A stretch of DNA of 36,183 nucleotides from a virus: the IMG/VR virus record IMGVR_UViG_3300034062_001898, positions 1 through 36,183 of that record; one strand, 5' to 3'. The notes beneath the pieces were generated by a model that made no database searches, was not told the DNA's origin, and saw only the letters and a list, made by a program, of their open reading frames with translations. Made by a program: the position numbers and the translations under genes. How positions within the stretch are numbered: the stretch's first letter is position 1; each line of letters starts with the position of its first letter. Of the stretch, positions 1 through 36,089 are shown piece after piece.

Positions 1-33
1 ATCGAAGCGGCTATTGCAGCCAACTCACGCTGA
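1..33 (+). CDS. Scaffolding protein, 3' end (continues from 36089 side)
   Basis: Codons ATC at 1-3 to the TGA at 31-33 encode the last ten residues of the scaffold gene that is complete at 34956-36089. It appears twice only because the contig ends overlap. It is not a separate gene. Confidence 0.95.
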   Translation: MEAAIAANSR

Positions 34-127
34 TGGTATAAACGCATCGGGGATGCTGCATTCGCAACAATGCACGTCCCCGGTGTGCCAACAGCACCGC
101 CAGCCACCGAAGCTCGAGGAGCGCGCA
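1..127. repeat. Terminal overlap, copy 1 (identical to 36057-36183)
   Basis: The first 127 bases are the same as the last 127, base for base. An overlap of exactly 127 is a standard de Bruijn k-mer length, so this is read as the closure overlap of a circular assembly and not as a biological terminal repeat. It holds the last ten codons and stop of the scaffold gene (1-33) and the start of the leader before the capsid gene. Confidence 0.95.
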
Positions 128-229
128 AGCGCCCACCTACGACATACCGGACTGAACAGGTTCGCGTAGGCCACACGAAAACGGGTGGGGCATGAGCCCC
201 AATCATTTTTTCTTGTGGGAGTTTCATAC
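34..229. other. Structured intergenic leader before the capsid gene
   Basis: This 196-base gap lies between the scaffold stop and the capsid start. It holds a two-part stem at 48-82: CGGGGA 48-53 pairs with TCCCCG 77-82, and TGCATT 57-62 pairs with AATGCA 69-74, around a small internal loop. A terminator-like hairpin at 186-211 follows. I find no good sigma70 promoter in it. A structured leader here could set capsid dosage relative to scaffold through readthrough or RNA processing; that is inference. Confidence 0.5.
186..211 (+). terminator. Terminator-like hairpin upstream of capsid gene
   Basis: TGGGGC (186-191), loop ATGA, GCCCCA (196-201), then six T residues at 206-211. The stem is short and four bases separate it from the T run, so termination may be partial. 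It sits 18 bases before the capsid start codon and right before its ribosome site. Confidence 0.5.
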
Positions 230-1207: not shown

Positions 1208-1219
1208 TGACCTCGTGGT

Positions 1220-1274
1220 GGGGTCACCCTTGCCTTACCGGGTGGGGTGACCCCTCGCTCGGTAAGGCTTTTTT
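1220..1274 (+). terminator. Two interlocked hairpins (pseudoknot or switch) with T run after capsid gene
   Basis: Stem A is ten perfect pairs, 1220-1229 with 1245-1254. Stem B is nine perfect pairs, 1232-1240 with 1260-1268, followed by six T residues (1269-1274). The left arm of B lies inside the loop of A, and the right arm of A lies inside the loop of B. The RNA can therefore form either an H-type pseudoknot or two mutually exclusive hairpins, of which B with its T run is the classic terminator. It sits between the capsid gene and the 62-residue gene. Confidence 0.75.
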
Positions 1275-1529: not shown

Positions 1530-2138
1530 ATGTTAGTGAATGCCACCACGACGCCAACAGATTGGAATGCGATCGCTGATGCACCGGGCCTTGATGAGGA
1601 TCGGTTCTCAAGTGACGCAAAGCTTTTTGTGCAGTTTTTCCGCAAGCCTGTGCTTCAGCCAGGGCTGTCGCAGCAGGAAGGCCGCGCAATCTACAAGGAA
1701 ACCGACTACATCCGAATCATGGTGCCTGGCGACAAGCTGAGCATCGTCGAGCGTCCGGTCGATTCGATCGACGCGCGTCGGTTTGCCGACAAGTATGAGA
1801 AATGGAAGGCCGGCGCCGGTAACGCCGTCGAGGGCACTCCGCTCTCGTCGCTGCCAAAGATGACGCCGTCGAAGGTTGAAGAATACAAATTCTTTGGCCT
1901 GCACACCGTAGAGCAGCTGGCCGATGCTAACGACAACCTCGGGCAAAAGTTCTTTGGATTCCAGGAAGACAAGCGCGCCGCAAAGGCGTTTATTGAGCTC
2001 GCTAAGGGCAACGCTCCGATCGAGAAAATGAACGAAGAGCTAAAGGCGCGTGATAGCAAGATTGAAGAGCTACAGGCCCAGATCGAGGCCATCACCAAAA
2101 TGATGGGCGCGAAGAAGAAGGGCGGCACCGAAGAGTAA
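1530..2138 (+). CDS. Conserved phage protein with C-terminal coiled coil
   Basis: 202 residues. The N-terminal two thirds are globular and include a short YKETDYIRIMVPGDK segment that I recognise as recurring in phage proteins encoded beside capsid genes. The last 50 residues form a charged coiled coil (EKMNEELKARDSKIEELQAQIEAI) ending in a lysine-rich tail. The ATG at 1530 has AAAAAGG upstream and is preferred to the TTG at 1506, which overlaps the terminator tail. It stands first after a strong terminator and ten bases before the adaptor gene. A role in the virion or its assembly is likely from context; none can be named. Confidence 0.75.
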   Translation: MLVNATTTPTDWNAIADAPGLDEDRFSSDAKLFVQFFRKPVLQPGLSQQEGRAIYKETDYIRIMVPGDKLSIVERPVDSIDARRFADKYEKWKAGAGNAVEGTPLSSLPKMTPSKVEEYKFFGLHTVEQLADANDNLGQKFFGFQEDKRAAKAFIELAKGNAPIEKMNEELKARDSKIEELQAQIEAITKMMGAKKKGGTEE

Positions 2139-34955: not shown

Positions 34956-36089
34956 ATGACAGAACCCACCACGATCCGCGACGCCTTAGAGGCCGCAGTC
35001 CCCGCCGACGATACCGTTGACGCCCCGGCACCTGAGCCGATTAACGAGCCGGTCAGCGAGCCGGCTATGTCGGCCGAGCCGAGCGTCGTGTCGGAGCCGG
35101 TCAAAGACGCTCCCAAACCCGACGGCCGAGACGACAAAGGCCGATTTAAGTCAAAGGAAGACAAGCCGCCTGTGGCGCCAGAAGCGGCGGCGGAGCCGGC
35201 TGCTGAGCCCGCGCAGGGCATACAGCCTGGTCCGAAGTCAGAGCCAAAGGCTGCCCCGCAGGAGCGCGCTCCGGCTTCCTGGCGCCCCGACGTGCGTGAG
35301 CACTGGAGCAAGCTGCCACCCGAAGTTCGCGCCGAGGTAGCCCGCCGCGAGCGCGAGATGCAGACGACTCTCCAAGAAACGGCCGAGGCTCGCCGTTTCA
35401 CTGAGCAGCTGCAGGGTGTCATTCGCCCTTACGAGATGTTTATCAAGGCCGAGGGCAGCAATCCACTGCAGGCGATCGACAACTTGATGGCGACTGCTGC
35501 CAAGCTGCGCACGGGTACCGCGCCTGAGCTCGCGCAGCTTGTTGCGGGGATGGTTAAGCAGTACGGGGTTGGCCGATTCGGTCAGAACTTTATCGAATCG
35601 CTTGACGCCGCACTCGCCGGAGAAGTGCCGCAGGCGGACCCGGTACAGAGCCAAGTGCAGCAAGTGCTGCAACAGCAGCTTGCGCCCGTGCAGCAGTTTA
35701 TGTCGCAGTTCCAGCAGGCCCAGCTCGCCCAGCAACAGCGCGCTCAGCAGGAGGCGGCGAGCGAGGTGCAGCAGTTCCTTGACCGCGCCGAGTTTGGCAA
35801 CGACGTGCGCGAAGAAATGGCAGACATTCTCGAGGTAGCCGAGCGACGTGGCCGCGAGCTATCGCTGCAGGACGCGTACAAGCAGGCGTGCCTCGTTAAC
35901 CCACGAGTGCGTGCCGTGCTGGAGCAGCGCGCAAAGGCGAAGGGCGCTCAGCAGCTGACCGGCGCCGCGCAAAAGGCCAGGGCGGCTGCCGTCAGTGTTT
36001 CGGGCGGCCCGACGCTTTCGGCGCCGAAGGGTGGCGCCGCAGACGTACGCTCGGCAATCGAAGCGGCTATTGCAGCCAACTCACGCTGA
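34956..36089 (+). CDS. Capsid scaffolding protein
   Basis: 377 residues. Residues 1-110 are disordered, acidic and Pro/Ala/Glu-rich with SEP and AEP repeats. Residues 110-270 include a WRPDVREHWSKLPPEVRAEVARREREM helix and a Gln-rich coiled coil (QVQQVLQQQLAPVQQF). The C-terminal end is basic and Ala-rich (RAKAKGAQQL), as expected for capsid binding. It lies directly before the capsid gene on the circle and should leave the prohead before packaging. GAAGG precedes the ATG. Confidence 0.78.
   Translation: MTEPTTIRDALEAAVPADDTVDAPAPEPINEPVSEPAMSAEPSVVSEPVKDAPKPDGRDDKGRFKSKEDKPPVAPEAAAEPAAEPAQGIQPGPKSEPKAAPQERAPASWRPDVREHWSKLPPEVRAEVARREREMQTTLQETAEARRFTEQLQGVIRPYEMFIKAEGSNPLQAIDNLMATAAKLRTGTAPELAQLVAGMVKQYGVGRFGQNFIESLDAALAGEVPQADPVQSQVQQVLQQQLAPVQQFMSQFQQAQLAQQQRAQQEAASEVQQFLDRAEFGNDVREEMADILEVAERRGRELSLQDAYKQACLVNPRVRAVLEQRAKAKGAQQLTGAAQKARAAAVSVSGGPTLSAPKGGAADVRSAIEAAIAANSR

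Follow-up and report, generated by a model that had tools for sequence, protein, structure and literature searches.

We analysed a viral record of 36,183 nt from IMG/VR (IMGVR_UViG_3300034062_001898) at its full length, and refer to this whole stretch of DNA as the window. Bases 20-127 are repeated as the last 108 bases, forming a direct terminal repeat, so the window is probably a complete, circularly closed genome. Its major capsid protein (MCP) falls in the podovirus capsid family of Myxococcus phages Mx8 and Mx9 and Stenotrophomonas phage BUCT555, and the gene order is gene 0, MCP, the RNA element that is our subject, gene 2, gene 3 and the tail genes (Table 1). From its place and acidic composition, we infer that gene 0 is scaffold-like. 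The slot between the element and gene 3, which gene 2 occupies here, holds one of several dissimilar proteins in relatives, mostly of 61-168 aa. Other terminator-like hairpins lie beside the MCP gene and gene 2, at window positions 186-201 and 1480-1501. In addition, strong structure is predicted for another stretch, the capsid 5' UTR (window 20-229; MFE -92.3, z -6.2), which has conserved blocks in many relatives and no match in Rfam.

Table 1. Genes, RNA segments and complementary sites of the window.
Feature	Position	Strand	Sequence or annotation
MCP gene, major capsid protein, 325 aa	230..1207	+	phrog_9953 major head protein, E=1.3e-110; NCBIfam NF033394 capsid_maj_Podo, E=3.1e-95
Segment Z	1208..1214	+	may pair with the 5' half of A (MFE hairpin 1208-1226); unsupported by covariation
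Motif M, putative antisense to the starts of two genes; shares 1220-1222 with A	1213..1222	+	TCGTGGTGGG; family consensus GT[C/G]GTGGG
A, left arm of A:A'	1220..1229	+	GGGGTCACCC
B, left arm of terminator stem B:B'	1232..1240	+	GCCTTACCG
A', right arm of A:A', inside the terminator loop	1245..1254	+	GGGTGACCCC
B', right arm of terminator stem	1260..1268	+	CGGTAAGGC
T6 run of the intrinsic terminator	1269..1274	+	directly after B'; no T-run after A'
Gene 2, 62 aa	1287..1475	+	without family match
Gene 3, 202 aa	1530..2138	+	phrog_20268, unknown function
Gene 3 site, 9-bp perfect complement of M 1213-1221, codons 5-8	1543..1551	+	CCACCACGA
Gene 0, 377 aa	34956..36089	+	phrog_25516 virion structural protein
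Gene 0 site, 10-bp perfect complement of M 1213-1222, codons 4-7	34965..34974	+	CCCACCACGA

Two interlocked stems after the capsid gene

Stems A:A' and B:B' are both perfect in the window, with 10 and 9 bp respectively, and their arms are interlocked in the order A-B-A'-B'. A first-pass annotation had described these two stems with a T-run after the second only, and its description holds: interlocked perfect stems of at least 10 and 9 bp were found in none of 3000 dinucleotide shuffles of 1205-1290, and stems of at least 6 and 6 bp in 61 of 3000. The MFE of the same 86-nt stretch is -42.3 kcal/mol (z = -4.3), and its nested MFE structure consists of the B hairpin and an upstream hairpin at 1208-1226, with A:A' absent. 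To judge by its GC-rich stem-loop and the T-run that follows, B:B' (1232-1268 plus T6) is an ordinary intrinsic terminator, and its stem grows inward through G-U pairs to 16 positions, overlapping A'. Besides being complementary, arms A and A' nearly repeat each other (GGTGGGGTCACCC and GGTGGGGTGACCC, 12 of 13 identical), so that in a single genome their complementarity could stem from a duplicated near-palindrome. The window has no match in Rfam 15 at the gathering score, and the element is absent from that release; sub-threshold matches around it were taken as chance, for example Trp_leader with 13.8 bits (gathering 41) and E 5.2.

Relatives were collected from four IMG/VR capsid-protein scans (the best 80 of each, from about 600 capsid relatives in all), one GTDB scan, one pattern scan and ten named phage regions. 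Including the window, the set comprises 391 sequences, some of which repeat one contig, and 296 match the capsid protein. The capsid stop codon was found in 292 sequences, yielding 171 distinct 110-nt downstream sequences; left out of these were L061 and L171, which have no stop in the sequence, and L156 and L091, where the match ends early. An early GTGG together with a capsid at least 70% identical defined 88 distinct elements, among them one false member (L118).

An automated search recovered the A-B-A'-B' arrangement with its T-run in 58 of the first 65 distinct sequences, in L024 and L025 through a different arm pair. The pattern that the first-pass annotation had named as fatal to its proposal, relatives keeping only one stem, is thus not what we see, and few members have lost or weakened A: A:A' is lost or weak in L015, L062, L077 and L078 and weak in L010, L024 and L244. 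By eye, the long A:A' is kept in L238, where the T-run is missing. More distant capsid relatives carry simple terminators or have no gap whatever. Matches to TGTCGTGGGTCACC occur at no fewer than 80 loci, of which 14 have A' and the T-run, all 14 beside this capsid gene, while the other 66 lack A'; the element was found outside its capsid context at none of these at least 80 loci. L255 (JADCBH010000335.1), whose element is identical to that of L179, is a contig filed under a Brevundimonas MAG, which hints at the host group.

Among relatives of other types, BUCT555 and four BUCT555-like IMG/VR sequences (L082, L097, L098, L100 and L105) show, by eye, compact H-type pseudoknot-like arrangements after the MCP gene, with A-rich third loops and in some cases without a T-run. 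In L128, L126 and L165, from which the element is absent, upstream arms after the MCP gene could compete with terminators, again as judged by eye.

Covariation and competition of the stems

We compared the pairing of each sequence's own arms with that of swapped arms. The own arms of A:A' gave a summed score of 2289 compared to 1784 ± 32.5 when swapped (86 rows including L118; L041 and L238, without T-run, were left out), and those of B:B' scored 23.9 compared to 13.1 ± 0.57 (85 rows), with 0 of 2000 permutations reaching the observed value in either case. Since such permutation tests are inflated by kinship of the rows, changes were also counted on the MCP tree as a check, and parsimony gave 17 double-compensated A:A' changes against 0-4 in slid controls, alongside 42 broken pairs that arise partly from alignment shifts. 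In alignment A1 (43 rows), 88.7% of A:A' positions were paired, compared to 36-52% in slid controls, and 22 double-change cells were counted compared to 5.5 in shuffles (0 of 500 reaching that number). RNAalifold, when run on A1, chose A:A' unprompted; the alignment of clade I (A2) is out of register at A:A' and was excluded from the pair counts. Stems A and B are both conserved by these comparative measures, with compensatory changes in related uncultured podoviruses, which is what the first-pass annotation had suggested looking for in each stem. The same data exclude a duplicated near-palindrome as the full account of A:A'.

A third hairpin, Z:A, which might serve as an anti-antiterminator, is predicted in the window, but covariation gives no support for its selection, as 1199 of 5000 permutations reach the observed sum and 77.7% of positions pair compared to 78.2% after shuffling. 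Complementarity to A is nonetheless higher for Z than for its letters in shuffled order (1198 compared to 823 ± 23).

The first-pass annotation had left it open whether the two stems form a pseudoknot or compete. When both stems are complete, 68 of 78 sequences leave no more than 0-3 nt for loop L3, while stem S1 is mostly 10-12 bp and loop L1 mostly 1-2 nt; L118 and seven weak rows were left out of this analysis and of the segment foldability analysis below. In A-form geometry, 3 nt are too short to span 10 bp, so the complete stems cannot coexist, and trimmed stems could. The stem order is that of an H-type pseudoknot, and the loop length is not one that permits full coexistence.

Predicted folding points to alternation of the two stems. 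In nascent RNA ending before B', the predicted probability of A:A' is above 0.9 in 72 of 83 sequences (L015, L062 and L118 were left out of the folding-state comparison), and the predicted A:A' hairpin also folds B on itself. The nested A and B states are predicted to be mutually exclusive, and the A hairpin to be complete before the terminator, as in an attenuator. Between the nested states, the mean energy difference is +1.9 (sd 4.4) and the median absolute difference 3.2 kcal/mol. At equilibrium the terminator state is predicted to predominate in 47 of 83 sequences and to have a probability of 0.5 or less in the remaining 36, which is unexpected of a functional terminator. In the window itself, which shares its letters with L003 over 1205-1274, the terminator is the favoured complete nested fold, by a margin of 5.1 kcal/mol, and A could accordingly be a mere folding intermediate. 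Shuffling makes the segment between A and A' less foldable (mean z -1.4 over 52 segments), but this also holds for the terminator loop (mean z -2.6, 66 loops), and foldability of the segment alone is thus not decisive.

At its 3' end, the capsid mRNA might nevertheless adopt a genuine H-type pseudoknot in which A and B are present as trimmed stems, acting as an exonuclease block or as a stronger terminator rather than as a switch. The A-B-A'-B' topology is retained in relatives, and under a standard penalty that ignores sterics the pseudoknot has a lower energy than the nested MFE in 38 of 78 sequences, yet the combination of so short an L3 with so long an S1 argues against it. Nor would a pseudoknot need the extra self-complementarity between A and A', and it leaves the masking of motif M described below unexplained, and we consider it unlikely. 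Two competing states, favoured by the folding models, fit better than a static full pseudoknot, and of the two options in the first-pass annotation it is competition that gains. A pseudoknot for frameshifting or stop-codon read-through was rejected, because the distance from the stop codon to A varies among relatives.

Motif M and the starts of gene 0 and gene 3

Within the element, conservation is highest at the letters that make up the consensus of motif M, just before A and overlapping it. A pattern search of 20 virus records located opposite-strand copies of M near the element, sited in the first codons of gene 3. On the plus strand of the window, M is perfectly complementary over 9 bp or more to exactly two sites, and both are at gene starts, those of gene 3 and gene 0. 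Neither the motif nor the two complementary starts had been recognized in the first-pass annotation.

Gene 3 was located in 83 of 87 element members. Pairing of M with its own gene-3 start scored 21.9, compared to 18.8 ± 0.39 for swapped partners (0 of 3000). The 7-mer core pairs in all 78 classed rows, 53 with Watson-Crick pairs only, 25 with G-U pairs and none with a mismatch; five rows with a diverged M (L001, L023, L024, L238 and L244) were unclassed, and in L002 and L240, which both pair, the two 7-mers overlap. The summed pairing of M with gene 3 was 1751, compared to 1346 ± 28 in a synonymous null based on the gene's own codon usage (maximum of 200: 1439; 80 distinct, with L042, which is too short, left out). 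Taken singly, 31 of 82 gene-3 starts, that of L024 being set by hand from the sequence, beat their own synonymous null at 0.05.

At gene 0, M scored 23.5 with its own start and 19.5 ± 0.48 with swapped ones (66 rows, 0 of 3000), and the sum of 1470 exceeded that of the synonymous null, 1031 ± 27 (63 distinct). The core pairs in 57 of 64 rows, a count that omits L202 (gene-0 start mis-assigned) and L001 (M mutated), and it is lost in one five-member subclade, L043 and L244. In addition, M has either C or G as its third base, and this base switches jointly with its partner at each of the two gene starts, which falls in a Thr codon, with 3 coordinated changes on the tree: 25 tips have the three-site state CGG, 24 have GCC, 6 have lost the gene-0 site and none is mixed. 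Rows with GTGGTAGGG carry CCTACC, in gene 0 in L023, L024 and L252 and in gene 3 in L023 and L024.

The control starts scored 15.8 (MCP) and 15.3 (gene 2), compared to 22.0 for gene 3 and 23.4 for gene 0, and letter-shuffled M reached 13.95 ± 0.29 and 14.66 ± 0.33 at gene 3 and gene 0, respectively. Pairing of M with the capsid 5' UTR was rejected as unspecific (own 19.6, swapped 19.2; 65 of 1000). In relatives without the element, complements of M were absent save for two stray matches (43 loci, 22 of them with both full flanks), and no M site was found at the gene-0 start in any of the 33 loci in which that gene was located, taking gene 0 as the long ORF ahead of the MCP gene. A general rule by which the capsid 3' region pairs with its own gene-0 start was likewise rejected, with a score of 16.1 compared to 16.4 for swapped partners in 33 relatives without the element.

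These comparisons leave the base pairing of M with gene 0 and with gene 3 well supported at the level of sequence, M being a conserved, covarying seed complementary to translation starts, as in antisense and small RNAs. The first-pass annotation had proposed that the switch could tune the output of the 62-residue gene 2 and of tail RNA; the pairings of M suggest instead gene 0 and gene 3, and not chiefly gene 2.

Since three copies per genome that change together would also be expected of a protein-binding site, M and its two complements might be DNA sites for a phage protein, a regulator or packaging factor of drifting specificity, with no RNA pairing at all. The placement of the sites, two of them among the opening codons of a gene and one just past a stop codon, argues against this, as do the deviations in the gene-3 core, which are G-U compatible in 25 of 25 cases, few of them independent; this wobble argument is weak because the tolerated changes are all transitions. 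We judge a protein-binding site to be improbable. More improbable still is that the terminator is an ordinary one beside which A is a by-product of a G/C-rich near-palindrome and M a by-product of conserved protein starts. The near direct repeats of A and A', the ability of A' to form a hairpin by itself and the simple terminators after the MCP gene of other relatives would all suit that explanation, but it is at odds with the double changes in A:A' and with the behaviour of M under synonymous nulls, swapped controls and three-site covariation.

Returning to M as an RNA-pairing motif, its accessibility is predicted to depend on which stem is formed. The core of M had a predicted unpaired value of 0.74 with B:B' imposed and 0.25 with A:A' imposed, being higher in the former in 74 of 75 sequences, a difference that is partly built in because M overlaps A.

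A possible fold-gated antisense tag on the capsid mRNA

The sequence comparisons show three sets of base pairs under selection, namely B:B' with its T-run, A:A', whose predicted fold contains B, and M with the opening codons of genes 0 and 3. We propose that the capsid 3' UTR is a bistable RNA that couples termination to antisense control of two structural genes, a reading that extends to termination control and repression and that we hold to be about evenly balanced between right and wrong. A:A' would form first as RNA polymerase crosses the element and would delay B:B', allowing some polymerases to continue through genes 2 and 3 to the tail genes. If B:B' wins, transcription would stop, and A and M would be released. 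M exposed on the capsid transcript could then pair with the starts of gene 0 and gene 3, most likely in trans, and block ribosome loading at both, so that the abundance of the capsid mRNA would keep the output of its assembly partners low. One and the same fold would thus end the transcript and arm the antisense tag.

Action in trans is an assumption, which we prefer on three grounds: 2.3 kb separate the element from gene 0 upstream, the terminator stands before gene 3 and a loose promoter-like match precedes the MCP gene; this extended -10-like match is present in 43 of 82 sequences and is weak evidence for a promoter. M could alternatively pair in cis on a long transcript, in the manner of the Min Jou interaction, by folding onto the gene 3 (or gene 0) start of the same RNA. 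A ribosome finishing capsid translation, at a stop codon a few nucleotides upstream of M, would open the pairing and so couple gene 3 to capsid translation. The A/M region does start about 4-25 nt past the capsid stop codon, and gene 3 is only a few hundred nucleotides downstream; a 7-nt long-distance pair in MS2 offers a precedent (PMC11339067). Against cis pairing, the terminator lies between M and gene 3, such that most transcripts would lack gene 3, and the equally conserved gene-0 site 2.3 kb upstream is left unexplained. We see pairing in cis as rather unlikely, though less so than a pseudoknot.

The capsid mRNA may itself be regulatory, carrying in its 3' UTR a tag that is gated by the choice between terminator and antiterminator folds and is antisense to the scaffold-like gene and gene 3 at their starts, with capsid transcription setting the stoichiometry of head assembly through RNA-RNA pairing. 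We regard this broader proposal as tentative, somewhat less probable than the coupling of termination to antisense control. What keeps the coat, scaffold and connector proteins of dsDNA phages in proportion is a long-standing problem, for which promoters, terminators and feedback by proteins are the usual explanations. The element described here, a single short RNA conserved across many uncultured phages, seems to link three genes of the structural region through base pairing and to have a fold switch built in. In the open-access literature that we searched, we found no description of the element, nor of an antisense link between a capsid 3' UTR and the starts of scaffold or neighbouring genes in DNA phages.

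Several known systems share parts of this arrangement. T7 has an intrinsic terminator after capsid gene 10, and the element resembles it in placing a GC-rich hairpin and T-run between the capsid and later genes, permitting a step-down in expression; unlike the T7 terminator, it adds the interlocked, conserved A:A' and an overlapping putative antisense motif. Transcription attenuators such as the trp leader, with its 1:2, 2:3 and 3:4 pairings, and that of pT181 repC have two mutually exclusive hairpins, the later one a terminator, as is predicted for the element. In contrast to these attenuators, the element follows the main gene, its arms are interlocked rather than sharing one strand and its putative anti-antiterminator Z:A lacks support from covariation.

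The Min Jou interaction of MS2 is a short long-distance pair from the coat region to the start of another gene (PMC11339067); our case differs in being that of a dsDNA phage, with the element past the coat stop codon, a putative target on each side of it, upstream and downstream, and a terminator in between. Among small RNAs, CisR, which derives from the prtV 3' UTR and not from a capsid gene, acts on phage cep (PMC13250501), and STnc6030 is antisense to a tailspike gene (PMC12197685). Both resemble M in having a short seed on an RNA from or near a 3' end that acts on phage mRNA, but in our proposal the targets would be two partner genes of the very capsid mRNA that bears the seed.
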